From Methanosarcina barkeri str. Wiesmoor (GTDB lineage: Archaea; Halobacteriota; Methanosarcinia; Methanosarcinales; Methanosarcinaceae), in NCBI RefSeq assembly GCF_000969985.1, contig NZ_CP009526.1, forward strand, positions 3,844,001-3,908,000: a stretch of 64,000 bases of DNA. The letters are read 5' to 3'. The position numbers and the translations under genes are program-made. Shown one piece after another: positions 30,057 to 55,848 of the stretch. Under the pieces are notes generated by a model that did not search any database, was not told the origin of the DNA, and was given only the letters and a program-made list of their open reading frames with translations. The stretch's first letter is position 1; each line of letters opens with the position of its first letter.

Positions 30057-30061
30057 TTAAA

Positions 30062-30838: not shown

Positions 30839-30893
30839 TTAGGAACCTCATTATTATATAAATTCTGATAGGTCATTAGCAACAAAACTCTAG

Positions 30894-31817: not shown

Positions 31818-31819
31818 GC

Positions 31820-32710: not shown

Positions 32711-32745
32711 TTTTGTCCCTTAAAAATTTATAGCAGTGGTTTTAC

Positions 32746-33651: not shown

Positions 33652-34159
33652 GTGTACAGACACTCCAATAAGTAGTAAATTAAATTTGCATTCGTCTAAG
33701 TCGTTTCCAGTATAATGCACAATAAATGAAAAATATATAAAGATTCGCTTCATAGAATATAGAGAAGTACATATGAGTAAAAAATAGCAAAGAAAGTAGT
33801 ATGGTATATATATACTATATAAAATATAGATAAATGGAACAAAGAGAATAGACAAAGAGAGAAATAGCATTAAGAAAAACACACATGAAATTCTTCGAAT
33901 AACAGACACAAAGAAATGAAAGTACTTTTCAAACCACAATACTTTCATGCTAAATAGGTATGAGAGATCAATAGCAGGCAAAAAATTGATTGAAACCTGG
34001 AAACAGAAAGGATTGAAACCTAGTGCTTCGATTTTCAAATAAATACATAATAAGAAAACAATTGCAACTTATAACACAAATATTATTTTAAAGTCAGATA
34101 GCATTCTGTAACGCGGAAAGCACAGTCGGTCGCAGAGTGATTCGATATGGATATTATAC

Positions 34160-37599: not shown

Positions 37600-39666
37600 T
37601 CAACTTGAAAAGCTTCCAGAAGAAACCGAAAATTCAAAAGGAGCTGAAGATCGAACAGCTTCAACTATTGAATCTGCCTTCAGGTCCTCAAGTGCGAGAT
37701 ATTTGGCTCCAAGCGCACTGGAAATTTCCTGAGCAAGCCCGAATTTAATAATACTGCTTTCCGTATCAATAACTGCCGATTGTATGCATTCTTTTCTGAA
37801 CATGGAAGCTATTGTTTTTGTCTCCTGGAGAGGAGGTTCACCATTCATACTGACATTTGCCCTCCCATCAGAGATCAGAACCATAAACGGACAGGTATCA
37901 GGATCGCGTCGGAGTTCTGCATGTATGGTTTCATAACCTTTCATCAGCCCATGGGAAAGGGGAGTCTTTCCTCCGGTTGGCAGTTCCTCCAGATATTTTT
38001 GTGCCATTTCCACACTGGAAGTTGGCGGCAGCAACAGCTCTGCTCCTGTCCCCTTAAAAGCAATAAGCCCCACCTTATCACGTTTCTGGTAAGCGTCCAT
38101 CAACATTGAAAGCACTGCACCTTTAGAAGCTACCATCCGCTGCTGAGCTCCCATAGAACCGCTGGCATCCACAACAAAGAGTACAAGGTTGCCTATCTTT
38201 TTCTCACGGACTTTTTGCCTGAAATCCAAGTCATGAATTACTATGGAATTTCCGTTTTTTTCCCTTACAAGCTGGTAGGGTGCAGCTGCCCTCAGGGTAG
38301 CATCAAAAGCAATATCCGTTGTTTTCTCTTCTGGGATTTTACTCTTAATATACCTGCCCTGTGTAGATTTCGTCAGAGTTTTGCTGCGCCGACCTGACCC
38401 ATTTCGGTTTTCTCTGCGAAAATCGGGAGAAAACTGCTTTATCTGGTAACCTTCTCCTGTTGCAAAAATAGTTTCTGAGGAAGCATCCGGCTGTTCCCCG
38501 GTGCTATCCTGTGGGTCATCTGAATTCTGCTCTTCAGGATGAGCCTGCGCTTTTCCTGACTGCTCGTTATGCTCTTTTTTTTGCTGTTCATTTTTATTTT
38601 TTTCTTTTTCCTTTTCTTTTTCCTTTTTCTTTTCCCTTTGTTTCTCCATACTCTCGTTGAGTTTATCCTGCTTATCAGAATAATTATCAAACGGTTTTCT
38701 TCGCATACGGTGAGGAAGGACTAATTCTGCAGCTTCTTTTACATCCTCTTCAAGAACCTCAGTCCTGCCGTTGAAAGCTGCAAGCGTGATTGAGGTTTTC
38801 ATCATTGTGATGTCTGCCCTGTGCCCATCGACTCCCATATCAACACAGATCTGGCTGATCAATTCAAGCATGCTGTCTGAGATCTTTACTTCAGGAAGTA
38901 ATTTCTGCGCCAGAAGAATCTGTTCACAAAGCTCGGACTCTGCAGCCTGCCAGTTTGCTGCAAAAGCTTCAGGATCGGTTTCATAGCTGAGCCTGTATTT
39001 GATAAGTTCCACTCTTCTGGCTACATCCATGATTCCCTTTATATCCACACATAAACCGAACCGGTCAAGTAACTGGGGTCGAAGTTCTCCTTCTTCAGGG
39101 TTCATGGTGCCTACAAGCACAAAATTCGCAGGGTGGGAGAAGGAAATTCCTTCTCTTTCAACAGTATTTACTCCCATTGCTGCTGAGTCGAGGAGTACAT
39201 CTACAAGATGATCATCCAGAAGATTAATCTCATCCACATACAGGATACCCCTGTGAGCATGAGCAAGTACACCAGGTTCAAAGCGTTTTTCTCCTTTCTT
39301 GATAGCATGTTCGATATCAAGAGTTCCTACAACGCGGTCTTCGGTGGCACTTACAGGCAGGTCCACAACCTTCATTTTTATAGAAGAACTCTTAAGAGCC
39401 CCAGCTTTTACCTTTTCCAGGCATTCTTCACACATTGCATTTACATCATTAGGATCGCAGCGGTATTTACAGCCTTCAACTACCTGTATTTCAGGCAGAA
39501 GATTGGCAAGGGCCCGGACAGCTGTTGATTTGGCAGTACCTTTTTCACCCCTGATCAGAACTCCTCCAACTTTTGGATTTATAGCGTTCAGGATCAGAGC
39601 TTTCTTCATTTTCTCCTGCCCTACTATTGCAGTAAAAGGGTAAACAATAATGTTATGGTTTTTCAT
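37600..39666 (-). CDS. Fused BchI/BchD-type chelatase ATPase and VWA subunit
   Basis: 688 residues. Residues ~8-330 form a Mg-chelatase-type AAA+ domain (Walker [10 protein letters not shown] at 40-48, [12 protein letters not shown] Walker [10 protein letters not shown] sensor), then a Lys/Glu/Gln-rich linker (~335-390), and a C-terminal von Willebrand A domain with MIDAS motif DASGSMG (~498). It combines ChlI/BchI and ChlD/BchD (CobS/CobT-like) activities, the ATP-driven partner of a CobN/ChlH subunit. It lies 22 bp after the S-layer-domain gene, with GAGGT upstream. The likely partners are CobN at 45719 or the exported form at 1-2319. The metal is not shown by sequence. Confidence 0.88.
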
Positions 39667-39687
39667 GGTTTAACCTCAATATATCTT

Positions 39688-41448
39688 TTAGTTTCCGAGA
39701 AGGTATTCTTCAACACTCATCGTCGGGATCGCCCACCGATTGACTGTAGGAAGAACAGAATCCACCTTTTCCACCTTATTCATGAAGGGAAAAAAGGTGA
39801 CATTGAGATTTCCTCCTGTCTTCTTTTCAAAAGACCCAAGGTGGATTTCTTCTGTAACCTCAAGGTCCGAACCAAAATTAAGAGCATTTTCATTTTCAAG
39901 CCGGATTTTAGGGGAAGTTTCAACAACAGTAAGTGCCCCGAACGTATCCCCTACCTTTATTTCAAGAGGGCTTTCGGAAAAGTGTAGAGGATATTTTAGA
40001 CTTACACCAGAACTTCCGTTTCCTTCCAGGACATTATTCACATATATGGAAAAGAGGGGGACGTCAATACCATTTATTGTCTTATTGTACAGGAAAGTAT
40101 GTGTACCCAGGTCAGCTGACTTCCCTGGAGATATTATGCTTGAGTAAACAGCAGCATTATTTCTCAAAATCGTCAGGTGAACTTTATCCCACTCTATATC
40201 ATCTACTCTCAGGATGTATCCTTCCCCAAGAGCCCATTCGTCATCGGAATAGAGACATCTGCTATTGTCATCATCCATAAGGACATTTACAATTCCCTGA
40301 TCGTCTCCAAGATATGCATATTTCTCACCATCCCATCCAAGCACAGAATATCCGCCATCAAAAGCGTTTTCTCCATAATTCCCCATCTCCGGGTTTTTGT
40401 ATGTAACCTTGACAGGCGAGGATTCATAAACCAGACCTCCTTTCGGAATCCAGCCGTCTTCAGCATTAAGATTAAGTTCAAATCTTTCTGTACTGAAATT
40501 ATTTTCAAGATCATAATAGAGCATACCAAAAGAATCAGCTGTCCAGATGCAGGAGTCTGGAGAAGAATCCGAACGATTTACAGTTAAAGAGGTGCCTTTT
40601 ATCTTATAGGACTTGATAACATCTTTAGTCATATTGTAAGAGCATGCCCTGTATACATTATCAGCCATTCTGAAATCGATCAAATCTTTAAGGATTGTGA
40701 CATAATCTCCAGGCTGCATCCTTATAGGCACTCTGTTTTTCAATTCGATCTTTTTATCTGTAGCTTCAGTGACCTCGAAATTACCGTACTGGTCCCCAAC
40801 GTTAATCTCAATAGGTTCAGTCGAATACTGGCTTACACTTGAGAGACTCACAATTGGATCCTTACTGTCAAGAACCCGGCTAAGAGTTCCTTCCAGAATT
40901 GTATATTTAGTGCCGTTTATTGTAGCATTGAATTTGAACTTTGAACCTTCTTCAAGAGATTCCGTAGTAACTGGGACGGAATTTTTCTGAAGTTCAAGGA
41001 GAGCAGAATCGTTGTTTACCCCCTGAAGCACCAGTTTGTAGCCATTTCCTAGATCATAATCATTCCCCCTTTGAAGATCACGACTTCCATAGCTAACCAG
41101 GTTCTCAGTGATTAACCCATCTTCAAAGACTTTGTATTTTTTCCCAAAGAAAGCCGTTGAACCATAACTGATTTTTGAGGTATAAGTTGCATTACCCGTA
41201 TCAATAAGCCCATCTTCAGAGAAATTAAGCTCCAGCGACTCATAGTATGTACCAGTAGAAGTTGAATAATAAAATCCAGGGCAATTTTCCCCATTAAGAA
41301 TTGTATGTTCTCCGGCTGAAATATTTACAATAGGGCCTCGTTGTTCAATAGCACCTTCCACAGGAGTAATAGCAATTAAAATCAAGGAGATAAGAAAAAT
41401 AATATAAAAATTGATAAAAATTCTGGTTTTTTTGTCACCATTAATCAT
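39688..41448 (-). CDS. Exported protein with two S-layer duplication domains
   Basis: 586 residues from the ATG at 41448; the frame runs on to a TTG at 41481. Signal peptide: basic start (GDKKTR), hydrophobic IIFLISLILIAITP, cleavage near VEGA. Two Methanosarcina-type S-layer duplication domains follow (~25-300 and ~310-545); paired segments are GNGYKLVLQGV/GEGYILRVDDI and EPIEINVGDQYGNFEV/SPLEIKVGDTFGALTV. There is no PGF tail or C-terminal membrane helix, so it may be held by S-layer contacts or a partner. It is first of an operon with the chelatase ATPase, hence probably the surface part of the same system. No ribosome site; perhaps leaderless. Confidence 0.85.
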   Translation of the reverse strand: MINGDKKTRIFINFYIIFLISLILIAITPVEGAIEQRGPIVNISAGEHTILNGENCPGFYYSTSTGTYYESLELNFSEDGLIDTGNATYTSKISYGSTAFFGKKYKVFEDGLITENLVSYGSRDLQRGNDYDLGNGYKLVLQGVNNDSALLELQKNSVPVTTESLEEGSKFKFNATINGTKYTILEGTLSRVLDSKDPIVSLSSVSQYSTEPIEINVGDQYGNFEVTEATDKKIELKNRVPIRMQPGDYVTILKDLIDFRMADNVYRACSYNMTKDVIKSYKIKGTSLTVNRSDSSPDSCIWTADSFGMLYYDLENNFSTERFELNLNAEDGWIPKGGLVYESSPVKVTYKNPEMGNYGENAFDGGYSVLGWDGEKYAYLGDDQGIVNVLMDDDNSRCLYSDDEWALGEGYILRVDDIEWDKVHLTILRNNAAVYSSIISPGKSADLGTHTFLYNKTINGIDVPLFSIYVNNVLEGNGSSGVSLKYPLHFSESPLEIKVGDTFGALTVVETSPKIRLENENALNFGSDLEVTEEIHLGSFEKKTGGNLNVTFFPFMNKVEKVDSVLPTVNRWAIPTMSVEEYLLGN

Positions 41449-41820
41449 AAATGTGAAAAATATGGTAGCAATATATATCAATTTCGTTTTTTAATTATGA
41501 GATGTAATTTACATATTATAAAAGAATCTTTGATGTTGGAAGAGAATATGATGCAAATAAGATTTATTTTGGAGAGTAGGCATCAAGACAACAATTAATA
41601 TTTGGCCTTATTGATAGTGAAATATAGGAAAGCACATTAAAAATAAAAAAGAACATTAAAAATAAACTAATTGTCGAATAGAGAATTGACATAGTAACTT
41701 AGAATTACAGGAAAATTTGATTGGAAAAAATAGTCATAATTTTTATTTTATTATTACTATATGAGATGATTTAAGAATATTTTCGAAATATTTATTAATC
41801 ACTTTCTATAAGGGTCAATT
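41449..41820. promoter_or_regulatory. Divergent promoter region of the chelatase/ECF locus, with palindrome
   Basis: 372 bp shared by two divergent operons. A palindrome AATATTT-TCG-AAATATT (41776-41792) lies 28 bp before the plus-strand ATG, where it could cover the initiation site and act as an operator. ATTATAAAAG around 41516-41525 may be promoter sequence. A common regulator for both operons is an inference. Confidence 0.35.
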
Positions 41821-42402
41821 ATGATTTCCAGAAAGGCTATAATATTCGGATTTATAGTCCTGAGCCTCACAGGCTTGATAATTTATTCTCAAATCGTGCC
41901 AGAGAAAAAAACCGTGTATCAGGAAGACTTCAAAAATTGTAATTCAGAAGGAGAGTTTCTAAGATGCAAAGATGGAGCACTATACCTTGAAACAACAAAT
42001 TTGGCACAGACAGGGGAAGGATTTTGGAGTAAAAATGTGAGCCTATCTCCAGGAAAAATTTCCTGGAACTGGAACGGACAGGATCTGGATAAATTCAGTC
42101 TCTGGTTAAAAGTGACATTCAGCGATCACAAATCCATTTACTATGTTGCAGCGGGAAGCATGAATCCGCAATCCGAAGGTGAATATTATCGGGATCAGGA
42201 AAACCGAAGGCGATTTTCACCATCGATTATAATCTCAGGAATTCCAAGGGGTACAGTTGAAAGAGATCTTGTTGAAGATTATGAAAAATACTGCGGATCT
42301 GCTGAAAATATAAAGATTGAAAAATTGAGTGCAGGTTTTGGAGACAACAGTACGCAACATCAGAATATTCTGAGTATCTCAGACCTGAAGATATATGGAT
42401 AA
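41821..42402 (+). CDS. Membrane-anchored extracytoplasmic protein, unknown function
   Basis: 193 residues, ATG at 41821 with AAGGGTC upstream. An N-terminal hydrophobic segment (AIIFGFIVLSLTGLIIYSQIV, about 6-26) works as signal or anchor. The rest is a beta-rich domain with WNWNGQDLDKFSLWLKV and two Cys pairs' worth of cysteines (Cys40, Cys49, one near 155). The family is not recognised. First gene of the plus-strand operon; its stop overlaps an upstream ATG of the next frame. Confidence 0.65.
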   Translation: MISRKAIIFGFIVLSLTGLIIYSQIVPEKKTVYQEDFKNCNSEGEFLRCKDGALYLETTNLAQTGEGFWSKNVSLSPGKISWNWNGQDLDKFSLWLKVTFSDHKSIYYVAAGSMNPQSEGEYYRDQENRRRFSPSIIISGIPRGTVERDLVEDYEKYCGSAENIKIEKLSAGFGDNSTQHQNILSISDLKIYG

Positions 42403-42431
42403 TGATAAAGGGTAATCAAAGGAGTCTGAAT

Positions 42432-43982
42432 ATGAAAAAGAGTAGTGTTGGGCTGATAACTATATTGTTATTTCTATTTTTAGTTTCTTCGGGATGCGAA
42501 TCTTCACATACTGTAGCCTCCGGTGAAAATGGGAATAAAGATAGTGAAGAGATATTAAAAAGTGATAGCGTTCAGGAAAGCAGCCAGCTGAGTCAGGAAA
42601 ATCTAACATCTTCAGAAAAATCATCTCCTTACCTTTACTGGGAGTATGAACTTGGAGATATAACTCCAGAAAATATCAATGAAGGAAAATCGAATGTTCA
42701 GGACTGTGTAACATACTCTCAGGACGGAAAATATGTAGCTGTTGGGACAGGAAAAAAACTGACAGTTATTGATGTACCAGACAAAAAAATATTATGGGAA
42801 AAAACCTTAGGAGGAAATGTTTCCGACATTTCGTTTTCAAAAGACGGAAAGTATCTGCTTGCAGGGGAAAAAAGTACTGACGGATACATCTATTCTCTGG
42901 ATGCTGGCACAGGAAATGAAATTCACAGCTATAGAAGCGCCGATGACCTGGGAACCAGTACGAACTCAAAATATCAGCCCTGCATATATAAAATAACAGC
43001 TGCTGATGATGCTGTATACATTGCAGCGGGTCGATACTGGAAAGAGTCAGGGTACGGGCTGGCTTCAAGGGTATACAGATTCAACCCGGATGGCAATCTT
43101 TCCTGGAAACTGCCAGCAAATGAAAACTATGCGCAGAGTGTAAACTGGATCGACTCAAGCCAGGACGGAAAAAATGTGGTTTTTTCAACCGGAGACTGGA
43201 CAAATTCCCTTGGACTTGATACAGTCGTCTATTCTGTGGATGACAGCGGAAATCTCCGTTGGGAATATGAAATTCTCCCTCTTAAGCCTTACTTTGTTTC
43301 AGCAGCCATCTGGCACGGGCTTGATATTTCAGATGATGGGTCCATGGTAACTGCCTATACTGGTGATGGAAGAAAATACCTGTTTTATGATTCCGAGATG
43401 ACGAAACCGGGAGACGGAAAAACAGCATGGGACATGAAAACCCCTGGAGACGGGAGGACATCATGGGACACCTATGATTGGCAATCCAATGTAACAGTTC
43501 CAGAAGAGATAGAGGGAAGTTACATCTATGCCTATGGGGAAGCTGCAAAAATTTCCAGTAAAAATGAGACACTTTACCTTACAGGAGCCACACTTCCTGC
43601 ATATTATCCCGACAAAATATCGGTAGCATATCCCCTTGAGAATACTCTTATATCAAGTGATGTTGAGAAAGGAGACACTTCATGGACTTATTCCCTTGGA
43701 GGACGTTGTGCAGGGATTTTCTTTTCTCCAGACACCAAATTCTTTGTCCTGCCAGTCGGGAAAGACTCTTCCTCAGGCGATACTCAAGTTCAAGGAATTC
43801 ATGTTTTTGACAACCAGAAATCCGGAAACGGAAATTCAAGGTTAATCTGGAAATATAACACTGAGGGCGTTGTTGTAGATGCTGCGATTTCTTCCGACTG
43901 CACAGTTGCTGCAGTTGAAGCCCCTCTAAAGCTTGAAAATGGAGATATAATTGGAAAGCACAGGTTAATAATTGTCAGGTGA
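42432..43982 (+). CDS. Beta-propeller lipoprotein (PQQ/WD-like repeats) I
   Basis: 516 residues from the ATG at 42432, chosen for AAAGGAG 7 nt upstream (the frame opens at 42402). Lipoprotein signal MKKSSVGLITILLFLFLVSSGC, lipidated on the Cys. A Ser/Glu-rich tether is followed by propeller blades with repeating YSQDGKYVAVGTG, FSKDGKYLLAGE and ISSDCTVAAVEAP motifs. Such propellers usually bind ligands or partners. The paralogue directly downstream starts across its stop, so the two are translationally coupled. Confidence 0.8.
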   Translation: MKKSSVGLITILLFLFLVSSGCESSHTVASGENGNKDSEEILKSDSVQESSQLSQENLTSSEKSSPYLYWEYELGDITPENINEGKSNVQDCVTYSQDGKYVAVGTGKKLTVIDVPDKKILWEKTLGGNVSDISFSKDGKYLLAGEKSTDGYIYSLDAGTGNEIHSYRSADDLGTSTNSKYQPCIYKITAADDAVYIAAGRYWKESGYGLASRVYRFNPDGNLSWKLPANENYAQSVNWIDSSQDGKNVVFSTGDWTNSLGLDTVVYSVDDSGNLRWEYEILPLKPYFVSAAIWHGLDISDDGSMVTAYTGDGRKYLFYDSEMTKPGDGKTAWDMKTPGDGRTSWDTYDWQSNVTVPEEIEGSYIYAYGEAAKISSKNETLYLTGATLPAYYPDKISVAYPLENTLISSDVEKGDTSWTYSLGGRCAGIFFSPDTKFFVLPVGKDSSSGDTQVQGIHVFDNQKSGNGNSRLIWKYNTEGVVVDAAISSDCTVAAVEAPLKLENGDIIGKHRLIIVR

Positions 43983-43986
43983 GAAA

Positions 43987-45705
43987 ATGAAATGGAAAAT
44001 TTTGATAGTCCTGCTAATCCTAACTGTAATTACTGCCGGATGTACTGAAAAAAGCCAGGACTCCGAGAACAATAGTAAAATTGCTCAGGCTTCCGAAGGT
44101 GTCCAGAACATAGAGGAAAGTGGTAATTCCGAAGCCGGGATACCCATAGATTCAATAGTATTTTCCAGGACCGGAGCTCTGATTACTCTAAAAGAAGAGA
44201 CCGACATTTCACAGGTAAAAATCTCTTCGGTCAATAGTTCGACAGAGTCAATAGATATTGAAAAAACGGAGAACCAGGTCTTTGTAGCTTTTGAGTGGGA
44301 ACCCAATACTCAATACAAGTTTGAAGTGATCACGGGTGACGGAGCAGAAAGTGATCTGGAAGTGTATGCACCTGAAAAACCTGCTTTGAAAGAAGAGTAC
44401 GCTGTAAAACTTGAGGATGTTACTCCCGGATCGATAGATAAAACTACAGAAAATATAGAAGGCATGATTAAATTCTCTCCTGACAGCAAGTATCTTGCTA
44501 TCGGAACTCAAGGAGGTTCTCTGAAACTTATAGAGCTTACAACAGGTGAAAAGGTTTGGGAAATACAGCTTGTTAAAGGTATAGCTGATGCAAGAATTTC
44601 AGATATAGAGTTTTCAGGGGATGGGAAACGTCTTATCGTAGGAGAAGATAGTCCGGATGCTTTTATTCACTGCTTTGATTTAAATGGCACTGAAATCTGG
44701 AAATATGGAGCAGGTCAGGATCTGGGTTCAGACCTTGACCACATGCCAGCCATGAAAAAAATAAAACTTGATTCAAAAGGGAACATCTATGTTGCTGCCA
44801 GTAGAGCTTGTGGCTACATAGGAGAGAAATACAAGTATTTGGGAATAGTTTATTCTTTTGACTCCGAAGGCAATTCGCGCTGGAAATTCCCTGAATCCGA
44901 ACTGATGGACTCCGGAGTTACATGGATAGATAACACCCCTGACGGAAAATACGCTGTTTTCGGGACGACCTGCTTTACAAATGCCGACAAATGGAAAGAA
45001 GGAACTGTACATGTTCTGGACGGAAATACCGGAAAAGAGTACTGGAACTATTCAATCCCACCCCTTGAGCCATTTTTTGACTATTCAGCCATATGGTACA
45101 GTACCCAGATTACTCCTGATGGCAATAATATAATAACAATGACCAGTGATGGACGAGCCTTTTTATTTGACAATTACGAGATCATGGGAACCGGTGTACC
45201 AGAAGTAAAATGGCAGGAAAACATTTCAACCCCGGTTGTAGTAAGCGGAGTCCCTATTTACGGCAGTGCGAATTATGCATATATTATCAACAATACCCTT
45301 ATTTTCTCAATAGGCAGCACTTTCTCCAAAGACAAAAATAACGATGCCCCAATAGAACATCCCAACGGCAACAGCCTCTTTGCCTATGATACCGACGGCA
45401 ACCTGCTGTGGAAATGGAGAGTGGACGGCTATGCAGGGGAATGCGCAATGAATGACAGGTATCTCGTTGTCCCCATAGCCCAGAACCTGGTGACCAAGGA
45501 TAGAAGTGCTCACGGAGTGTATGTCTTTGACGTATCAAAAAGTGGAGGTTCAAATTCTAAACTTGCCCAGGTTTATAACACCAAGGGAATTACAATAGCG
45601 GCTGATATCTCCCCTGATGGAAAATATATTGCAGCCATGGAAGCTCCTGCAAGGCTTGATGATGGCACAGTGCTGGGAGAGTACAAAGTGCATGTTCTTA
45701 CGTAA
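43987..45705 (+). CDS. Beta-propeller lipoprotein (PQQ/WD-like repeats) II
   Basis: 572 residues, ATG at 43987 with AGGTGA overlapping the previous stop. Lipobox ITAGC after a hydrophobic core. A short beta domain (~50-130, IVFSRTGALITL) precedes blades with FSPDSKYLAIGTQGG, FSGDGKRLIVGED, NTPDGKYAVFGTTC and ISPDGKYIAAMEAP. Its layout and wording mirror the upstream lipoprotein (e.g. W..ELG/PPLEPFF.YSAIWY segments), so they are tandem paralogues. Located 13 bp before cobN: a surface ligand-binding role linked to the chelatase is plausible but unproven. Confidence 0.8.
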   Translation: MKWKILIVLLILTVITAGCTEKSQDSENNSKIAQASEGVQNIEESGNSEAGIPIDSIVFSRTGALITLKEETDISQVKISSVNSSTESIDIEKTENQVFVAFEWEPNTQYKFEVITGDGAESDLEVYAPEKPALKEEYAVKLEDVTPGSIDKTTENIEGMIKFSPDSKYLAIGTQGGSLKLIELTTGEKVWEIQLVKGIADARISDIEFSGDGKRLIVGEDSPDAFIHCFDLNGTEIWKYGAGQDLGSDLDHMPAMKKIKLDSKGNIYVAASRACGYIGEKYKYLGIVYSFDSEGNSRWKFPESELMDSGVTWIDNTPDGKYAVFGTTCFTNADKWKEGTVHVLDGNTGKEYWNYSIPPLEPFFDYSAIWYSTQITPDGNNIITMTSDGRAFLFDNYEIMGTGVPEVKWQENISTPVVVSGVPIYGSANYAYIINNTLIFSIGSTFSKDKNNDAPIEHPNGNSLFAYDTDGNLLWKWRVDGYAGECAMNDRYLVVPIAQNLVTKDRSAHGVYVFDVSKSGGSNSKLAQVYNTKGITIAADISPDGKYIAAMEAPARLDDGTVLGEYKVHVLT

Positions 45706-45718
45706 GAGGAGAAAAAAT

Positions 45719-48700: not shown

Positions 48701-49723
48701 CCCCTTAAAGAATTAGGCAGGCCCAGAATTGACGTTACGGTCCGAGTTTCCGGAATTCTGCGGGACAATTTCCCAAACTGTCTTGAAGTTATAGACGAAG
48801 CAATCCAGGCTGTGGCTTCTCTTGATGAACCTGGAGAGATGAATTATCTAAGAAAACATAGCCTTCAGATGATTGAAGAAGGAGCGGATTCCAGAGATGC
48901 TACTTTAAGGATCTTTTCTAGCAAACCCGGGACTTATTCGGCAGGAGTTCAGCTTGCAGTCTATGCAAGTGCCTGGAAAGACGAAAAAGACCTGGCAGAC
49001 ATCTTCCTTTACTGGAATGGGTATGCTTATGGAAAGGATGTAAAAGGCAAGGAAGCTCACACTCAGCTTGCGTCAAGCCTTAAGACTGTAGATGCCACCT
49101 TTAATAAAGTTGTAAGCGACGAGTACGACCTATTAGGATGTTGCTGTTACTTTGGGGTCCACGGAGGCTTTACAGCTGCAGCCAAGCAGGCTTCCGGAAG
49201 AGATGTAAAAGTTTACTTTGGCGATACTCGAGAACCTCAGCACGTTGAAATCCGGGACATGGCTGACGAAATGCGAAGGGTCGTAAGAGCCAAGCTCTTA
49301 AATCCAAAATGGATTGAAGGCATGAAACAGCACGGATATAAAGGTGCGCAGGACATTTCTAAAAGAGTGGGAAGAGTCTATGGATGGGAAGCCTCCACCC
49401 AGAAAGTGGACGACTGGATTTTTGATGATATCACAAAGGCCTTCGTGCTTGATGAAGAAATGCGCCGCTTTTTTGAAGAGAATAATCCCTATGCCCTTGA
49501 GGAAATGTCCAGGCGGCTCCTTGAAGCACAGTCAAGAGGACTCTGGGAGCCTGACCCCGAGCTTCTTGAAGAATTAAAAAAATCCTATCTTGAGATCGAG
49601 AGCTGGATGGAAGAACTGGCAGGAGAAGGAGAATTTCAGGGTGGAGCTGTTGATATAATTAGTTCTGAAGACGTCCCTGACTGGGATGCAAAAATGAAGG
49701 AAATTCGAAAAATCCTCAAATAA
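45719..49723 (+). CDS. cobN: CobN-type chelatase large subunit
   Basis: 1334 residues from the ATG at 45719 with GAGGAG upstream; the frame is open earlier but overlaps the lipoprotein gene. CobN/ChlH landmarks: KVAFILHNRPCTGVEGSVGDAANLDSLESV (~360), PKRGCAGARCDGKVCKILHDP, VHVGTHGNLEFLPGKGVGLS, GGYIPAGPSGLIMRGRDDVLPTGRNFYSLDPKR, and NRVFGSYG-like LASSLKTVDATFNKVVSDEYDLLGCCCYFGVHGGF. It binds a tetrapyrrole and, with an AAA/VWA motor, inserts a divalent metal. No signal peptide: cytoplasmic. Methanogens use small CbiX/CfbA chelatases for B12 and F430, so its substrate is open. An internal tandem duplication lies near 48040-48280. Confidence 0.9.
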   Translation: MKIISITWNSYIPTLLKAANDLGIELEAHYSKILEDNPEEAEKVLLACEHADAVFLYYTSTPFWEDFYEKLEPLKKRVPVICVGSDPSSLTLSSVKLEIAATCFSYIIYGGQENFANMLRYLLKEVFGCEIETKPPEKIPWDGLYHPDAEKIFSNVEEYLNWYGPLKDKTVGLLISRTSWVNNELEIEKKLIKELENLNLSIIPVFAYSLKDEELGSRGMNEVIEDYFIENGRTIIDCLVKLSPFFIASSKTEERNASCAAKGIEVLRKLDVPVFQPVTSHYMTVEEWQESMGLSTEIGWSVALPEFEGGIEPIMIGAGKKEGNYMGRFPIEERCSKFASRILKWTELRKKPVNQRKVAFILHNRPCTGVEGSVGDAANLDSLESVARILNRMQEAGYVVNPPENGKDLIETILKRKAISEFRWTPINEIVKNGGALDFVEKEEYEKFFNTLSPKVKQRVIESWGNPPGEEVDGIPAAMVYDNKIVVTGVQYENAVVCVQPKRGCAGARCDGKVCKILHDPEVPPTHQYLATYRYLENTFGADVLVHVGTHGNLEFLPGKGVGLSGDCYPDISIGTIPHLYIYNSDNPPEGTIAKRRSLACLIDHMQTVMTSGGLYENLAELDRLLGEYEQAKHDKGREHALKHLILDEIKKSNLNSEIKADDQTPFEEVVRKAHEALGKIRNTQIQSGMHIFGQMPEGEKKVEFINSILRYDDQGSVGNKVSIRRLIAELLELNLDELISDQSRISEDGKSNGQLLEEIDSLSKDLIRTFINNPEKEPARIIKEIFEGKSFEKQNIKGKSFEEQSVNKEINNPEIEPNRIIEEIFEGKGFKEQKIKGKSFEEQEIKDLSINPVLLEDAVSICNRILDLESRIDDSLEIEALLHGFNGGYIPAGPSGLIMRGRDDVLPTGRNFYSLDPKRIPTKAAWRVGQQLSGVLINKHIEDEGRYPENVGFYWMANDVMWADGEGMAQIMSLIGVEPVWLNNGQLKGFSVIPLKELGRPRIDVTVRVSGILRDNFPNCLEVIDEAIQAVASLDEPGEMNYLRKHSLQMIEEGADSRDATLRIFSSKPGTYSAGVQLAVYASAWKDEKDLADIFLYWNGYAYGKDVKGKEAHTQLASSLKTVDATFNKVVSDEYDLLGCCCYFGVHGGFTAAAKQASGRDVKVYFGDTREPQHVEIRDMADEMRRVVRAKLLNPKWIEGMKQHGYKGAQDISKRVGRVYGWEASTQKVDDWIFDDITKAFVLDEEMRRFFEENNPYALEEMSRRLLEAQSRGLWEPDPELLEELKKSYLEIESWMEELAGEGEFQGGAVDIISSEDVPDWDAKMKEIRKILK

Positions 49724-49739
49724 GAAAAAAGGTAGTGGA

Positions 49740-51317
49740 ATGAAAAAAATAGGTTTTCTCCTCCTTGTACTTGTGTTAATCATACAGCCCGTAGCTGCAC
49801 AGGTTCAGCAGGAGGATTTCAAACCTGAAGATATGACCACATTCACAATTCAGGTTCCTCACGGGGTAGAAGGAAATGGTCTTGCAGTTAGAAACAGTAC
49901 GCTCTCTGCATATATTTTCTTTGAAAGCTATTATGACGGCAATATGAATGTGACGGTGGAACTCGACTTACCGAAAGGTTTTGTGCTTCACGAGCCCTCG
50001 GCTAATTCATTTACACTTCAGACCGAGTATGATGACTGGTACAGGCTTGTTGACTTTTATATACCTGCAGATACCCCCTTTGGGGTTTACAACATAACTG
50101 CAAAAGCAGTTGTTGATGTTGAAGGAACAAAACATACTATTGTGCGTACAACCCAGCTTAAAGTTGCTTCAAAAGAAGAAGTCGCAAATGCTGTCTCAGT
50201 ATCCCAACTCATAGTACCGTCAGACGAAGACGGATATGGAGATCCCAGCCATCCATCCAATACCCTTGTTGTCCAGGAAACATCCCCTGCACTCAAAAAG
50301 CTGCTACAGGTTACAGACCTGAAGATAGAGAAAAAAGAACTCACTTCAACTTACATGGGGATAGAGCTTACCAATACCGGAAATAGTACAATTCATGTAA
50401 TAGTCACATATGACATTCTTGACATAAAAACCGGTGAACCTGTAAAAGCGTTTAAGCCCGATATTATGGGAATGAAAGCGGACACCTTGTGTTATGCCAC
50501 CGTAACCCTTTCTCCAGGATCAAGTTCACTGATAAGCCTTCCTATATATATATCTCCAGATGCAATGGGGGGAGACTACCTTCTAAAAGTTAAAGTAAAA
50601 CTCACAGGTACCGACTGGATTGCAGTAACAAAAGATCAAAAAATTACTTCAATCTCAAGGCGATGGGGACCTATAATAACTACGTTTGCCGCCTCTTTAC
50701 TAGGAATTACTGCTCTGGGCTTTTTTTTCTCAAGACCCAGGAAGATTATGGACAGGTTTAAAACCCGCAATCTTGTGTTAATTGCCCTTTTCGGCACGGT
50801 TTCTTTTGCAGCGATAAGCCTGCCTATGACCATCCTGTGGGACTTATCCCATGCAATCTTCGGACCATTCAGTTTCCTGTTCACAGGACTCTTCAATGAG
50901 ATTCTTCTTTACATGCTCATTGCATCTCTTGTAGTCCTGATTCCAAAACCGGGAGTAATAAGCCTTTTTATGATGGTCAGGTTTCTACTTGGAGGTTTCA
51001 TAACAGGAAGTTTCACACCTATAACTTTTATAACACTGTCAATCAACGCGATAATCCTGGAATTTTTGTTGTATGTTGCAGGTGTAACCGGTAAAAATCC
51101 AGCTCCAGATAACAGGTTGAAAATGGGAATTATTTGCGGATTTTCAGACGTGATCAGCGGATATGTTTCCTTCAGTGTCTGGATGGTCCTCTACAGACTT
51201 TTCTACAGCAACTGGTACATAGCTGTAAATCTACTGATCGATGGGTTCCTCTACACCTTCATAGGAACCTGGTTCGGAATAAGCCTTGGAAATAGACTAA
51301 AGAAGGTGGTAGAGTGA
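49740..51317 (+). CDS. ECF transporter S-component fused to an extracellular domain
   Basis: 525 residues, ATG at 49740 with AAGGTAG upstream. Signal peptide 1-20 (LLLVLVLIIQPVAA), then about 285 residues of extracellular beta domains, the second resembling CARDB/NEW3 folds (GIELTNTGNSTIHV). From ~309 the chain is membrane: one helix to ~330, a basic loop, then about six helices, with the pattern of ECF S-components (FNEILLYMLIASLVVLI, GIICGFSDVISGYVSF, LLIDGFLYTFIGTWFGISLG). With EcfA and EcfT directly downstream it makes a complete ECF importer. The substrate cannot be read; context with CobN points to metal ion, corrinoid or another tetrapyrrole. Confidence 0.75.
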   Translation: MKKIGFLLLVLVLIIQPVAAQVQQEDFKPEDMTTFTIQVPHGVEGNGLAVRNSTLSAYIFFESYYDGNMNVTVELDLPKGFVLHEPSANSFTLQTEYDDWYRLVDFYIPADTPFGVYNITAKAVVDVEGTKHTIVRTTQLKVASKEEVANAVSVSQLIVPSDEDGYGDPSHPSNTLVVQETSPALKKLLQVTDLKIEKKELTSTYMGIELTNTGNSTIHVIVTYDILDIKTGEPVKAFKPDIMGMKADTLCYATVTLSPGSSSLISLPIYISPDAMGGDYLLKVKVKLTGTDWIAVTKDQKITSISRRWGPIITTFAASLLGITALGFFFSRPRKIMDRFKTRNLVLIALFGTVSFAAISLPMTILWDLSHAIFGPFSFLFTGLFNEILLYMLIASLVVLIPKPGVISLFMMVRFLLGGFITGSFTPITFITLSINAIILEFLLYVAGVTGKNPAPDNRLKMGIICGFSDVISGYVSFSVWMVLYRLFYSNWYIAVNLLIDGFLYTFIGTWFGISLGNRLKKVVE

Positions 51318-51325
51318 CACTAACC

Positions 51326-51548
51326 GTGGTCAGGTTTTCATTTAGAAAGAATTGCGACATTACTCAGGGTTTTCGCTCAAGCCTTTTCTCAAAAGGCTTG
51401 TGGTCAGGCTTTCATTTGGAAAGGATTGCGACATTAATCAGGGTTTTCGCTCAAGCCCAACAGTTGCGCCGGTTGATCACGCCGCCGTAAAGGTTTTTCG
51501 ATCAAACCTTTTCTCAAAAGGTTTGCGGGCAAGTTTTCATTTGGAAAG
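51326..51548 (+). repeat. Intra-operon repeat with two covarying hairpins
   Basis: Units starting GTGGTCAGGTTTTCATTT recur at 51326 and 51400, with a partial third at 51524. Two hairpins with CTC loops are perfect: AAGCCTTTT/AAAAGGCTT (51379-51399) and AAACCTTTT/AAAAGGTTT (51504-51524). They differ by one base pair, G-C versus A-T, changed on both sides. They lie between the S-component and ecfA genes, in transcribed DNA. Confidence 0.7.
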
Positions 51549-51559
51549 GTTGTGGTACA

Positions 51560-53452
51560 ATGATAGAAATCAAAGACCTATGGTACACATATCCAGGAAG
51601 ATCGGAACCGACTTTAAAGGGAGTTAACCTTAGAGTCGAAAAAGGAGAATTTGTTCTCCTCACAGGACCTACTGGATGTGGAAAAAGTACTTTATTAAAA
51701 ACATTAAACGGAATCATCCCTCATGAATCTGGAGGAATATTATCAGGAAGTGTGAAAGTCAAAGGGATGGAAACCACTGATTCAAACCAGATGGAAATTT
51801 CGAAAGAAGTAGGCCTTGTGTTTCAGAATCCAGATGACCAGATATTTTCTACAATAGTTGAGGACGAAGTAGCTTTTGGGCCTGAAAACCTCTGCTTTGA
51901 GCAAAAAGAAATTGATAAAAAGGTAACAGAAGCCCTGCAAATTGTAGGGATGTCCGATCTCAGACTGAACTCGACAAATTCACTTTCCGGTGGACAGAAA
52001 CAGAGGATCTGCATTGCAAGTATGCTTGCAATGGAGCCTGAAATCCTTGCCATGGATGAACCTGTAAGCCAGATGGACCCCATGGGCACGCACGAAGTCC
52101 TGAATACAGTAAGGGAACTCAACAGAAAACTGAAAACAACTATTCTGCTGGTGGAACACAGACTACATGAGCTTGCACCATTTGTAGACAGAGTTGTTAT
52201 AATGGACAATGGAAAAATAGTCTTTGATCAGCCCGCTTCAAAAGCTTTTGATAATCTTGAGATATTTTACAGGCTAGGGCTTCGAATTCCTGAACCAGTC
52301 GAGCTCTGCCATAGCCTTGGAATTAAAGCCAGCCCTTTGAGTGTCAGCGGAGCTCTTGCTGTACTAGACAGAGAAATTAAAGAAAATAATAGAATTCCTC
52401 AACTTCTTCTGAATCCGGATAAAAATCCTGTAACCAAGACCAGTTCAAGGAACGCTTCCATTGAAAATAATGCTCATGGAAATAATGATTCTGAAAAAAA
52501 TACTCATGGGAATAATGATTCTGAAAACAATGCTCATGGAAATAATGCTTATAGAAATAATGATTCTGAAAACAATGATTCAATTATTTCCATTCAGGAC
52601 CTATGGTCAGGATATGAGAAAAACAAGATGGTATTGAAAGGAATAAATCTGGAAATCCGTAAAGGTGAGAGGGTTGCGATTATGGGCACGAACGGCTCGG
52701 GTAAGTCAACCCTGCTTTTACACCTTGCTGCCATTCTCAAACCAGATAAAGGAAATGTAAAGGTTTTTGAGGAAGACACAAGATCCAAGAATCCATACTC
52801 CTTTGCAGGTAAAGTCGGATTTGTATTCCAGAACCCTGACCTAATGCTCTTCTGTGATTCAGCTGAGGAAGAAGTAAGGTTTGGACCTGTTCAATTAAAA
52901 TACAGCAATATTGAGGAAAGAGTAAGAAACTCTCTTGAAGCCATGTCAATTCTGCCTCTCAGGCATGACCTCCCTCAAGCTCTGAGCAGAGGGCAAAGAC
53001 TCAGGACAGCCGTCGCTTCGGTACTTTCCATAAATCCAGAACTTATTCTTCTCGATGAACCCACAACAGGGCAAGATAAAGTGAATATAGAACAGATGAT
53101 GGATTTTTTCAAAAATAATAATTCGACACTGATTTTCTGCACACACGATATTGAGGTAGCCATGTCCTATGCCACAAGAATTCTGGTAATGAATGATGGG
53201 CAGATCATAGCGGACGGAAAGGGAAAAGAGGTTATAAAAGATAATGAAACCCTCAAAAAATCCTCACTTACCCAGCCTCCGGTTGTTGAGATCGCAAATC
53301 ATCTGGGAATCAATGCCTTTTCAGTTAAAGAACTTGTGAAAACGCTGACTTCCAGAAGTGTTGAAGGGATAAACTCCGGAAGTGTTGAAGGGATAAACTC
53401 CGGAAATGTTGAAGAGATAAACTCCAGAAGTATTGAGGGGATAAAATGTTAA
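51560..53452 (+). CDS. ECF transporter double ATPase (EcfA-EcfA' fusion)
   Basis: 630 residues carrying two ABC ATPases. First: Walker A GPTGCGKS (36-43), VFQNPDDQ, LSGGQKQR, ILAMDEPVSQMDP, VEHRL. Second from ~347: Walker A GTNGSGKS, VFQNPDLMLF, a variant signature LSRGQRLR, LILLDEPTTGQD, CTHD. A low-complexity Asn/His/Asp/Ser linker (~297-340, HGNNDSENN units) and a repeated tail (SVEGINSGN units, ~605-630) flank the second half. It energises the ECF importer with the S-component upstream and EcfT downstream. The gap to ecfT is 13 bp. Confidence 0.9.
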   Translation: MIEIKDLWYTYPGRSEPTLKGVNLRVEKGEFVLLTGPTGCGKSTLLKTLNGIIPHESGGILSGSVKVKGMETTDSNQMEISKEVGLVFQNPDDQIFSTIVEDEVAFGPENLCFEQKEIDKKVTEALQIVGMSDLRLNSTNSLSGGQKQRICIASMLAMEPEILAMDEPVSQMDPMGTHEVLNTVRELNRKLKTTILLVEHRLHELAPFVDRVVIMDNGKIVFDQPASKAFDNLEIFYRLGLRIPEPVELCHSLGIKASPLSVSGALAVLDREIKENNRIPQLLLNPDKNPVTKTSSRNASIENNAHGNNDSEKNTHGNNDSENNAHGNNAYRNNDSENNDSIISIQDLWSGYEKNKMVLKGINLEIRKGERVAIMGTNGSGKSTLLLHLAAILKPDKGNVKVFEEDTRSKNPYSFAGKVGFVFQNPDLMLFCDSAEEEVRFGPVQLKYSNIEERVRNSLEAMSILPLRHDLPQALSRGQRLRTAVASVLSINPELILLDEPTTGQDKVNIEQMMDFFKNNNSTLIFCTHDIEVAMSYATRILVMNDGQIIADGKGKEVIKDNETLKKSSLTQPPVVEIANHLGINAFSVKELVKTLTSRSVEGINSGSVEGINSGNVEEINSRSIEGIKC

Positions 53453-53465
53453 GGGGATATTCCGG

Positions 53466-54359
53466 ATGATAGGTGCAAGATCAATTGCAGAACCAACAAT
53501 TAAAGATACAGTTATTCACAGAATGGACCCAAGAGCTAAGATCCTTATCCTGATTTCCACTGTTTTTGTCGCTGTGTCCCTGGATAACCAGAAAACGATG
53601 TTTTTGTTATTTCTGATCATACTCTCAGGATTCGTAATTGCAAAAATGCCGGCAATAAAGATCAAGACCCTGGTGATATTGCTTGTACTTTTGATCTGGG
53701 GAACTATTTACTCACAGGCTCTCTTTTATTCTCAACTTCCGAGAACTGTGATTTTTACTATAATCCGTCCCGATTTTCCGGTTTTGGGATGGTTGACAGG
53801 CGGCGGTCTGTTCGTATATGAGGAAGGACTTCATCACGGCGCAGTTCAGGGCCTTAGATCGGCTTCAATCCTTTCTCTTGGACTGTTAATGTGCTGGACC
53901 ACTGACTCAAGGGATATGTTAAACGGTCTGGTAGGACTCAAGGTACCTTATAGCGTAGCTTTTATGGTAATCACAGCAGTAAGATTTCTGCCAATAATAA
54001 TCACTGAAGTAGCTACCGTGATAACAGTCCAGCGGCTCAGGGGATTTAATCCGAAAAAATTTGGGTCAGGAATCATAAAAACATTACTCAATATATTAAC
54101 CCCGACTCTCGCAAACTGTGTAAGGAGAACAGGAACCCTTGCAGTTTCAATTCAGAGTAGGGCTTTTCGGGCAAATCCCGATAGGACATCTCTCAAAAAA
54201 CTGGAGTTTTCAAACATTGACAAAGTAATGATTACAGTTTTTGTTTTTGCAGCCATAAGTATTGTTGTCATAAAACTTCTTTACAATATGTATACAAGTG
54301 GAATTTATTATACTTCAAGTTTAAGACCTGTTTATGCAATTGCAGGGGGATACCTTTGA
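53466..54359 (+). CDS. ECF transporter transmembrane subunit EcfT (CbiQ family)
   Basis: 297 residues with about five to six membrane helices. The coupling helices carry the EcfT motifs: VQRLRGF near 185 and IQSRAFRA near 235 (A/S-R-G/A pattern). AAGGGGA lies upstream of the ATG. EcfT joins the ATPase pair to the S-component. Its stop overlaps the TTG start of the ABC-2 ATPase, extending the operon. Confidence 0.9.
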   Translation: MIGARSIAEPTIKDTVIHRMDPRAKILILISTVFVAVSLDNQKTMFLLFLIILSGFVIAKMPAIKIKTLVILLVLLIWGTIYSQALFYSQLPRTVIFTIIRPDFPVLGWLTGGGLFVYEEGLHHGAVQGLRSASILSLGLLMCWTTDSRDMLNGLVGLKVPYSVAFMVITAVRFLPIIITEVATVITVQRLRGFNPKKFGSGIIKTLLNILTPTLANCVRRTGTLAVSIQSRAFRANPDRTSLKKLEFSNIDKVMITVFVFAAISIVVIKLLYNMYTSGIYYTSSLRPVYAIAGGYL

Positions 54360-55123
54360 TAGAAATAAGAAAATTATCCAGATACTTTGGAAACCTGCTT
54401 GCTGTTGACAATCTTGACCTTGATGTTGGAAATGAGATCTTTGGCCTTCTTGGCCCTAATGGAGCAGGCAAAAGTACGACAGTTATGATGCTTACAACTC
54501 TACTAAAACCCAGCAGTGGGACTGCAAAAGTCTGTGGATATGATATAGTAAAAGAATCCAAAAAAGTAAGGTCAAAGATAAGCTATGTACCCCAGGATAT
54601 GGCAGTTGACCGAAAACTCACAGGTAGGGAAAATGTACTGCTTTATGCGAAACTCTATGGCATCCCTAATAGGGAGTCAAAGGTAGATGAAGTGATTGAA
54701 ATGATGGGGCTTTCAGATCGTGCCGGTGACCTTGTAGCAACATACTCCGGAGGAATGAGAAGGCGCCTTGAACTTGCTCAGGCGCTTGTGCACGAACCTG
54801 AGGTTCTGTTTCTGGATGAACCGACCCTTGGACTGGATGTGAGTGGCAGAAAGAAGATATGGGAGCATATCAGGATGCTCAAGGCCGAAGGGATGACCAT
54901 CTTCATGACTACGCACTACCTCGAAGAGGCAGAAAAATACTGCAATAGGGTTGCTATTATCGATAAAGGACGAATTGCAGTTATCGGCTCTCCTGAAAAC
55001 CTTACACACTCCATAGGGGAACACGCCTCCCTTAATGACGTTTTCCTTGAAAACGTTAAAACTCCTGAAGAGCAGGAAGGATTTAATTCAACCCAGTTCA
55101 GAAACCTTCTGAGGCGAAGATGA
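54356..55123 (+). CDS. ABC-2 type transporter ATP-binding protein
   Basis: 255 residues from a TTG at 54356 with GGGGGA upstream. Walker A GPNGAGKST (~39), YVPQDMAVDRKLTGREN, signature YSGGMRRRLELAQ, Walker B VLFLDEPTLGLD, TTHYLEEAE. It is of the DrrA/NodI type, commonly in exporters of drugs, lipids or heme-like compounds. Overlaps both neighbours by a few bases. Its presence in the operon suggests export or membrane placement of something connected to the imported compound; this is inference. Confidence 0.9.
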   Translation: MIEIRKLSRYFGNLLAVDNLDLDVGNEIFGLLGPNGAGKSTTVMMLTTLLKPSSGTAKVCGYDIVKESKKVRSKISYVPQDMAVDRKLTGRENVLLYAKLYGIPNRESKVDEVIEMMGLSDRAGDLVATYSGGMRRRLELAQALVHEPEVLFLDEPTLGLDVSGRKKIWEHIRMLKAEGMTIFMTTHYLEEAEKYCNRVAIIDKGRIAVIGSPENLTHSIGEHASLNDVFLENVKTPEEQEGFNSTQFRNLLRRR

Positions 55124-55848
55124 TGAAAGCAGTATACTACTATTTTGAGAGGGATCTTGTAAAATGGCTAAGGGGAAGGGTTACCGTTATTTCCTCACTC
55201 GTAATGCCTGCAGCCTGGCTGGTATTTGTAGGGCTGGCTTTGCCAACAAAGTTTACGGATAATTACCTCGAATATATAACCCCTGGAATTCTTGTCATGA
55301 CTATGCTTTTTTCTTCCCTGCAAGGAGGATCTCTTATGATTTTTGATAAGATACTTGGTTTTTTGAATAAGTTCCTTGCCATGCCCTCGCCACGAGAAAG
55401 CATGCTTTATGGAAAAATCCTATTTATCAGCGTAAGAGGCTTGATGCAGGCGACTGTGATACTCATAATAGCTACTCTTCTTGGAGTAAGGATATTGAAC
55501 CCTGTGCAGTTAATATTAATATATTTCACACTGTTTTTGTTTTCAGTATTTTTTTCTGCTCTCTCAACTATGATAGGAATGCACTTAAGCGACCATGACA
55601 GCTATGCGGCTGTTAATAGCATGATCAGCATGCCTTTGTTCTTCACCAGCAGTGCACTCATGCCCTATGACGTCATGCCTGCATGGTTGAGGTTTCTGGC
55701 CAGACTCAATCCTGTAAGTTATGCAATAGACAGCACAAGAACTCTGTTTGAAGGAGGAATGCCTGTTCATGGACTCATAAGCCTGGCCATAGGAGCCGGA
55801 ATTATGGTACTTCTTGGGACTTATCAGTTCAGGAAGGCATTTGTGTGA
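55120..55848 (+). CDS. ABC-2 type transporter permease
   Basis: 242 residues, six predicted membrane helices, with ABC-2 features (FDKILGFLNKFLAMPSPRESMLYGKI amphipathic region; SMPLFFTSSALMPYDVMPAWLRFLARLNPVSYAIDSTR near the C-terminus). Two adjacent ATGs (55120 and 55123) overlap the ATPase stop. Last gene of the operon, followed by 200 bp of purine-rich DNA. Confidence 0.9.
   Translation: MMKAVYYYFERDLVKWLRGRVTVISSLVMPAAWLVFVGLALPTKFTDNYLEYITPGILVMTMLFSSLQGGSLMIFDKILGFLNKFLAMPSPRESMLYGKILFISVRGLMQATVILIIATLLGVRILNPVQLILIYFTLFLFSVFFSALSTMIGMHLSDHDSYAAVNSMISMPLFFTSSALMPYDVMPAWLRFLARLNPVSYAIDSTRTLFEGGMPVHGLISLAIGAGIMVLLGTYQFRKAFV

Follow-up and report, generated by a model that had tools for sequence, protein, structure and literature searches.

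The class I chelatases CobNST and ChlIDH combine a large subunit with a AAA+/VWA motor, and the CobN relative HmuS of the Bacteroidota hmu operon removes iron from heme taken up by that operon, as described in PMC12583661. Here we describe an eleven-gene cluster of Methanosarcina barkeri str. Wiesmoor that shares features with both and includes an energy-coupling factor (ECF) importer. The cluster occupies positions 37600-55848 of the window, a 64,000-nucleotide stretch (positions 3,844,001 to 3,908,000 of contig NZ_CP009526.1) of the 4.9 Mb genome, and positions in this genome are given below in window coordinates. We read it as an import-coupled class I chelatase system that would take up a metallated tetrapyrrole or metallophore, remove the metal and export the ligand, and we give this reading a probability of roughly 0.45; its substrate, metal, direction of reaction and export step are the parts that we infer. 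The 11 genes are one conserved unit, and the coupling of this CobN branch to import is well supported by recurrence, gene fusions and swapping of importers.

The likeness to the hmu operon lies in a CobN-superfamily protein beside an importer, of metallated tetrapyrroles in the case of hmu, and in the HxGxHG motif. The M. barkeri cluster differs in its ChlID motor, ECF importer, beta-propeller lipoproteins, ABC-2 pair and archaeal host, and in having Cys-Cys-Cys where HmuS has Leu-Asp-His. As in CobNST and ChlIDH there is a CobN/ChlH large subunit together with I and D ATPase subunits with VWA, here in a single fused protein, whereas cob and chlorophyll genes are absent, the cavity residues are different and the neighbours are transporter genes. 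The cluster also encodes the parts of an ECF transporter, with two EcfA-type ATPase domains, an EcfT coupling subunit and a protein whose predicted model has the S-component fold. A double EcfA, an own EcfT and an S-component fold recall the dedicated ECF importers with tandem EcfA (5edl by fold), presumably YkoEDC-like, from which the cluster differs in a large ectodomain, surface lipoproteins, the link to a chelatase and the lack of a detectable sequence match. EcfT matches PF02361 (CbiQ) and EcfA scores as the CbiO type (TIGR01166), features shared with CbiMNQO and NikMNQO, but the cluster contains no CbiM or NikM S-component, CbiM-family genes lie elsewhere in the genome, and EcfT scores below the cut-off of the cobalt-specific TIGR02454. 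A search of the open-licence literature found no description of an ECF-CobN-ChlID cluster.

The genes form two divergent operons. In the leftward one the S-layer protein gene is followed by that of the ChlI-ChlD fusion, and the rightward one runs from the anchored protein through propellers 1 and 2, CobN, the S-component, EcfA, EcfT and the ABC-2 ATPase to the ABC-2 permease:

37600-39666, minus strand: ChlI-ChlD fusion (AAA+ plus VWA), the chelatase motor; TIGR02442, 912 bits (cut-off 779); PF01078, PF17863, PF13519 (Mg_chelatase, AAA-lid and VWA domains)
39688-41481, minus strand: S-layer duplication-domain protein; PF07752, TIGR01567
41821-42402, plus strand: anchored surface protein with one N-terminal hydrophobic segment
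42402-43982, plus strand: beta-propeller lipoprotein 1; PF13360 (PQQ_2), 44.8 bits; lipobox
43972-45705, plus strand: beta-propeller lipoprotein 2; PF13360, 37.8 bits; lipobox
45719-49723, plus strand: CobN-type large chelatase subunit; PF02514, 1297 bits, near full length; NF004646, 2578 bits
49740-50645, plus strand: S-component, signal segment and ectodomain (immunoglobulin (Ig)-like beta-sandwiches in the predicted model)
50646-51317, plus strand: S-component, transmembrane domain (predicted model; whole gene 49740-51317)
51560-53452, plus strand: double EcfA ATPase; TIGR04520, 457 bits (cut-off 315), in two stretches
53466-54359, plus strand: EcfT; PF02361, 88.5 bits (cut-off 25); TIGR02454, 68.5 bits, below the cut-off of 111.8
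54356-55123, plus strand: ABC-2 type ATPase; TIGR01188, 311 bits, marginally below the cut-off of 312
55120-55848, plus strand: ABC-2 type permease; PF01061, 106.5 bits

An earlier note on this stretch had named these parts, and the open reading frames (ORFs) and their Pfam and NCBIfam domains place all of them where it did. It had also described tight packing, with overlaps or gaps below about 25 bp between most neighbours and some 240 bp before ecfA as the main exception, and this was borne out: from left to right the gaps are 21, 339, -1, -11, 13, 16, 242, 13, -4 and -4 bp, the 339 bp between the S-layer and anchored-protein genes being the divergent promoter. The 242-bp gap is variable: in two other loci (L037 and L050) the S gene runs a few bases into the A gene. 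CobN starts at 45719, the program-listed ORF start at 45617 being too early, and the true start of the S-layer protein is probably some codons downstream of the listed TTG. Both propeller lipoproteins have lipobox-like N-termini (SSGC and TAGC), and Pfam and NCBIfam searches with the anchored protein gave no match.

Conservation of the cluster in Methanosarcinales was assessed in 23 loci from other genomes, counted by reading frame. All 11 genes are intact in 17 of these, comprising 16 Methanosarcina loci and L050, from a genome of another genus of the same family (G100) with 47-75% identity across the 11 genes; the CobN of L050 scores 0.59 in the frame-level count because its match is split, the actual frame being 1272 amino acids (aa) long. 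All 11 genes or their remnants, in identical order, are found in 20 of the 23. Both propellers are shortened in L030 (genome G151), where their spacing suggests that a deletion has fused the first part of propeller 1 with the last part of propeller 2; several frames are broken in L038, where assembly errors may be to blame, the S-layer gene and first propeller are broken in L049, and L033, L051 and L052 are truncated by contig ends. Lack of conservation of the neighbourhood in related genomes, which the earlier note had named as grounds for abandoning its proposal, is therefore not what we find. Within the genus this synteny is weak evidence because the neighbouring PolB and PhoU-like genes have often been retained too, but G100 keeps the 11 genes with no match on either side over the 1.3-1.5 kb of flank available. 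The S-component gene is present in 24 of 185 genomes of the order, namely 22 of 30 Methanosarcina, G100 and a member of another family (G017). The other eight Methanosarcina genomes give no match to it and, as four of them are at least 90% complete, the system is evidently dispensable. Methanosarcina sp. KYL-1 (L106) has CobN, ChlID and ABC-2 genes, and this S-component was not seen in the 24 kb available there.

Of 294 genomes sampled across the phylum, 176 have a CobN relative of whatever degree. When named genomes were scanned with the CobN alignment, 221 relatives emerged, the best 80 of which were used; leaving out the 11 closest to the window gave 69 loci, among them ANME-2 archaea, Methanothrix, Methanoregula, Desulfofundulus, Clostridium ragsdalei and Acetobacterium. 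Genes lying up to 8 kb from CobN were grouped by BLAST and representatives checked against Pfam, and the counts are lower bounds because many contigs are short. ChlID was found in 47 of the 69 loci and an ABC-2 permease in 29. Of the Fec/Btu-type importer proteins, a PF01497-type binding protein occurs in 39 and a FecCD permease in 28, with one or other of the two in 42; a TonB receptor is present in 15, ExbB in four and NikR in four (L137, L143, L148 and L171). EcfS, EcfT and a propeller occur together in the same three loci (L128, L129 and L144), and the S-layer protein has no BLAST match at 1e-6 in any of the 69. The FecCD count is far above the chance expectation of 3.6% per interval, calculated from the density of the nine FecCD matches in the M. 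barkeri genome, a rough control because other genomes differ from this one. Where CobN is well flanked (34 loci whose flanks exceed 5 kb on the upstream side and 3 kb on the downstream side), FecCD, a binding protein or EcfS is present in 29 and ChlID in 30. The cluster, said in the earlier note to join parts not normally described together, is not an isolated oddity; rather, it is the ECF form of a wider CobN-ChlID-importer system with Fec/Btu, TonB and ABC-2 neighbours. A Gate-domain (PF07670) membrane protein also lies near CobN in 12 of the 69 loci (L141 13819-14790 together with 12 related genes), possibly as an additional transporter of the system.

The ABC-2 pair directly follows CobN in L102, L104 and L105, whereas in Methanosarcina the ECF genes sit between them. 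Because the pair follows CobN also where no ECF genes are seen, we consider that it belongs with the chelatase and may export a stripped ligand, a possible role for two genes to which none had been given. With the importer varying while the tie between CobN and ABC-2 holds, the importer looks like a swappable module. In L144, an Actinomycetes metagenome-assembled genome (MAG) whose contig bears a bacterial signal recognition particle RNA, one strand carries propeller-EcfS-EcfAA-EcfT-CobN-ABC2A-ABC2P-ChlID, with CobN split into two frames. Similar ECF sets are found in two Deltaproteobacteria MAGs (by title), L128 and L129, the latter with a TonB receptor and ChlID in addition. At its N-terminus the S-component of L128 bears a domain resembling the anchored protein (hhalign E 3e-13, probability 98), and that of L144 bears one that resembles the N-terminal domain of propeller 2 (E 9e-9, probability 96), although the latter alignment is partly lipoprotein signal. 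These fusions are sound evidence of joint action by the surface proteins and the S-component, and the suggestion that surface and ECF proteins have a joint function stands as far as their belonging together goes, on the strength of the fusions and the conserved unit.

The S-component has no Pfam or NCBIfam match, PF01891 (CbiM) included, and is therefore not a recognisable CbiM/NikM metal carrier; those of the three bacterial loci likewise have no Pfam match, and a profile of the S-component searched against solved chains gave nothing relevant (best E 0.39). The transmembrane domain was modelled alone with 26 sequences, yielding a predicted local distance difference test (pLDDT) of 88 and a predicted template modelling score (pTM) of 0.84. 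Its best structural match is 5edl (Foldseek E 0.013, probability 1.00; VIA-align Z 16.3, root-mean-square deviation 2.7 over 172 residues), which we take to be the vitamin carrier YkoE, followed by RibU (Z 12.7), with the first unrelated membrane protein at 11.4; the transition-metal S-component structures 4m58 and 5x3x are also among the fold matches. An S-component fold is thus supported for the predicted domain, and the fold does not point to a ligand. In a full-length model the transmembrane part is unreliable and long stretches have pLDDT below 50; the PDB matches of that model concern the ectodomain, which resembles Ig-like sandwiches.

The window CobN has no hydrophobic segment and is therefore probably cytosolic. 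It scores 2578 against NF004646, named CobN (cut-off 1468), and 863 against the BchH family TIGR02025 (cut-off 829), and falls narrowly under the cut-off of the CobN family TIGR02257 (816.5, cut-off 822.05), which L110 and L117 pass (837) and L102, L131 and L171 fail among five other subfamily members. In a quick tree of 40 of the 89 aligned proteins, with some long branches and with Shimodaira-Hasegawa-like approximate likelihood-ratio test (SH-aLRT) rather than bootstrap support, 28 subfamily proteins form one clade (SH-aLRT 100), separate from Ser/Gly-Asp-Asp CobN, BchH-like proteins and secreted paralogues; the split CobN of L144 was not placed. Two sites in the protein are of particular note:

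47357-47371, plus strand: CobN residues 547-551, HVGTH; His551 (HmuS His538) belongs to the superfamily motif
49139-49147, plus strand: CobN residues 1141-1143, Cys-Cys-Cys, in the central-cavity loop, as aligned to solved CobN and ChlH

Residues were counted in 76 of the 80 named loci, leaving out four with split CobN; these were picked by similarity, so the counts describe the branch. His551, Cys1141 and Cys1142 are each present in all 76 and Cys1143 in 67, and of 12 other CobN-type proteins in the alignment one (L104) has Cys-Cys. The equivalent loop is Ser-Asp-Asp in solved CobN (7c6o) and Val-Ser-His in ChlH. If Ser-Asp-Asp is a defining trait of the cobaltochelatase CobN family, as we infer, the window protein departs from it. 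In HmuS the loop is Leu-Asp-His1209, by the motif printed in PMC12583661, and His1209 aligns with Cys1143 by hand; for the HmuS motif LSLDHxxEFMGG (His1209, Glu1212) the window protein has GCCCYFGVHGG, with Cys and Gly at those positions. A Cys cluster at the proposed metal site suggests that the metal chemistry would be different. Paralogues with Leu-Asp-His near CobN (L113, L158 and L167) were considered as HmuS-like and dropped, L113 and L158 scoring above the NCBIfam cut-off for BchH. A BchH-like protein lies a few kb from a Cys-type CobN in Methanothrix and Alkanophaga (L113 15540-19316, L158 17362-21129, L167 7739-11458).

Five CobN-type proteins are encoded in the M. barkeri genome, and the window CobN alone has neither signal nor membrane segments; each of the other four combines a signal-like N-terminus with a hydrophobic C-terminal segment, and together they make up a separate clade in the tree. 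Six ChlID-type matches were found, and since the fusion in the cluster is the single one over the family cut-off, the window CobN is presumably its natural partner. The genome also holds two small CbiX-family chelatase genes, in keeping with the earlier observation that small enzymes of this type make a large CobN not obviously needed for B12 or F430 synthesis, and four CbiM-family genes outside the cluster, so neither B12/F430 chelation nor free-metal import obviously needs the cluster. One of the secreted paralogues begins within the window, where 1-2451 on the minus strand (L055) is the 5' part of a very large CobN gene (ORF of 2157 aa), with three similar ones elsewhere in the genome; the cavity loop is Asn-Asp-Asp in three of the four. 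By eye, one secreted-type CobN lies near CbiM-, CbiQ- and CbiO-like genes and another a few kb from ExbB-like proteins (L056 and L054), which suggests metal handling outside the cell as well. FmdE-like proteins (HGHLCP-type motif, by eye) occur near CobN genes of different types (L129 5028-5999, L139 18819-19520, L054 14028-14612).

In the import-coupled chelatase that we propose, capture of a metal-loaded tetrapyrrole or similar metallophore outside the membrane would fall to the propeller lipoproteins together with the anchored protein and perhaps the S-layer protein, as their location and the fusions suggest. The S-component would receive this ligand via its large ectodomain and EcfAA-EcfT would import it, a step for which fold and family speak and to which the substrate is added by conjecture. 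In the cytosol CobN would then bind the ligand and, in a cavity lined, to judge by the residue pattern, by His551 and the Cys-Cys pair, the ChlID AAA+ motor would drive removal of the metal or, less likely, its exchange or insertion. The ABC-2 pair might finally export the stripped ligand, given its tie to CobN with or without ECF genes. The metal would most likely be nickel or cobalt, which methanogens need for F430, hydrogenase, carbon monoxide dehydrogenase and corrinoid enzymes. A broader version, which we hold only tentatively and think rather unlikely in full, is a shuttle of methanogens and other anaerobes in which a tetrapyrrole or tetrapyrrole-like macrocycle loaded with nickel or cobalt enters via a swappable ECF or Fec importer, the CobN branch with the Cys active site acts as an ATP-driven de-chelatase, and the empty ligand leaves via ABC-2.

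Hints of nickel come from NikR, which directly follows ChlID in L137 and L171, both with NikM/CbiM-like genes nearby (by eye), and a partial NikR lies 8.5 kb from CobN in L110. In nickel-limited M. marburgensis, CobN1 and NikR1 are made at high levels, according to PMC12350162. We prefer de-chelation because induction at nickel scarcity fits release of the metal better than insertion, and because of the HmuS precedent. Hints of corrinoids are the cobalamin riboswitches of L134 and L139, which come immediately after ChlID and precede TonB-receptor-like genes (by eye), and corrin methylase or cbi-like genes, also named by eye, on the contigs of L132, L135 and L140. A riboswitch scan of 40 loci (36 bacterial, 4 archaeal) found no NiCo riboswitch, and cobalamin riboswitches only in L134, L139 and L161, none of them, within the extent of the contigs, at the head of the CobN operon.

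Several observations weigh against the import-coupled chelatase reading. The nickel and corrinoid hints are of similar size and allow no choice of metal: NikR in four of 69 loci gives p ~ 0.01 only, by own-genome density, and the three NikR genes of M. barkeri are elsewhere, with none beside the cluster. To our knowledge, the HmuS operon is without a ChlID motor. None of the importer kinds counted is present in five of the 34 well-flanked loci, and L128 has no ChlID, ABC-2 permease or counted binding protein within 8 kb of CobN. By its predicted fold the S-component is no less akin to vitamin carriers than to any other group, and the shortened propellers of L030 imply that two whole propellers are not always required. 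The HmuS precedent is weakened in that its catalytic His and Glu are replaced by Cys and Gly in the window CobN, and CobN1 of M. marburgensis may or may not belong to the Cys-Cys subfamily. The literature found gives no substrate, metal or reaction for any member of this subfamily.

The best-surviving alternative is corrinoid salvage or remodelling, in which incomplete or foreign corrinoids or precursors are imported and CobN-ChlID inserts or swaps cobalt for the numerous B12-dependent methyltransferases found in Methanosarcina. The CobN annotation, the two subfamily members that pass TIGR02257, the cobalamin riboswitches and cbi-like genes at the loci just named, and the ability of Fec/Btu-type importers to import B12 as well are all consistent with this, as is the finding in PMC2667541 that Methanosarcina species have the largest nickel and cobalt metalloproteomes among the archaea surveyed. 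However, in the 40 loci scanned and as far as their contigs extend, the riboswitches lie after ChlID or kilobases off rather than at the head of a CobN operon, the window cluster contains no cob or cbi gene, and its CobN falls just below TIGR02257 without the Asp pair of solved CobN, and we regard the explanation as improbable. Somewhat less probable again is a forward chelatase, with the ECF module importing a metal ion or simple chelate and CobN-ChlID inserting the metal into an unknown cofactor made inside the cell. Class I chelatases are known for metal insertion, 4m58 and 5x3x are among the fold matches, and a 2011 review speculated that nickel insertion in F430 synthesis could be the work of CobN-like chelatases of Methanothermobacter (PMC3087415); but the S-component lacks a match to CbiM or any other Pfam family and has a large ectodomain, four CbiM-family genes are already present, and the importer slot in other loci is taken by Fec/Btu systems and TonB receptors, typically carriers of chelates. 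That the ECF module carries an unrelated vitamin and stands beside CobN by accident would fit its best fold match and a double EcfA with its own EcfT, as in dedicated vitamin carriers, but is quite improbable given that the same ECF-propeller-CobN link is seen in Methanosarcina, another archaeal genus and three bacterial MAGs, two of which are in the CobN tree and on different branches, and that the profile search gave nothing relevant among solved chains.

In the divergent promoter of the cluster two elements stand out:

41731-41759, no strand: 29-bp spaced inverted repeat, candidate operator
41781-41798, plus strand: conserved promoter-like element of the rightward operon, which we take to be BRE/TATA (B recognition element and TATA box)

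The latter has many invariant columns in all 16 aligned Methanosarcina promoters; the inverted repeat is near-identical in six of the 16 and looser in the rest, and it is the sole site in the genome at up to 3 mismatches. As the mark of a genome-wide regulon it was rejected, since a degenerate pattern gave 11 forward sites against 15 for a control and no regulon is demonstrated. A search with a consensus of the Escherichia coli NikR box gave nothing convincing in the 80 named loci, nor did a looser search in five NikR loci.

Published work also mentions cobN genes of Methanosarcina that may or may not correspond to the window gene. M. barkeri MS proteomics (PMC10846266) reports two CobN-like proteins, termed BtuS, at higher abundance in cultures given Fe(II)/Cys or FeS2 than in those given sulfide, and Ribo-seq shows a M. 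mazei cobN down at the RNA level under nitrogen limitation (PMC11456600). A read-through (UAG) CobN homologue of M. acetivorans was predicted in 2005 as a candidate pyrrolysine protein (PMC1242214) and is not matched to the genes considered here. Near the cluster, a PstSCAB-PhoU-like phosphate import cluster (by eye) lies at 29406-34038 on the minus strand, and a further PhoU-like gene at 56055-57065 on the opposite side.

The M. barkeri cluster and its bacterial counterparts tie one branch of CobN to importers, a defined motor and an exporter, and provide testable substrates, residues and genes. If the import-coupled chelatase reading is true, the NF004646 label 'cobaltochelatase' would be misleading for this branch. 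Nickel and cobalt supply matters for methane formation, and scavenging of these metals from organic complexes would bear on the ecology of methanogens.

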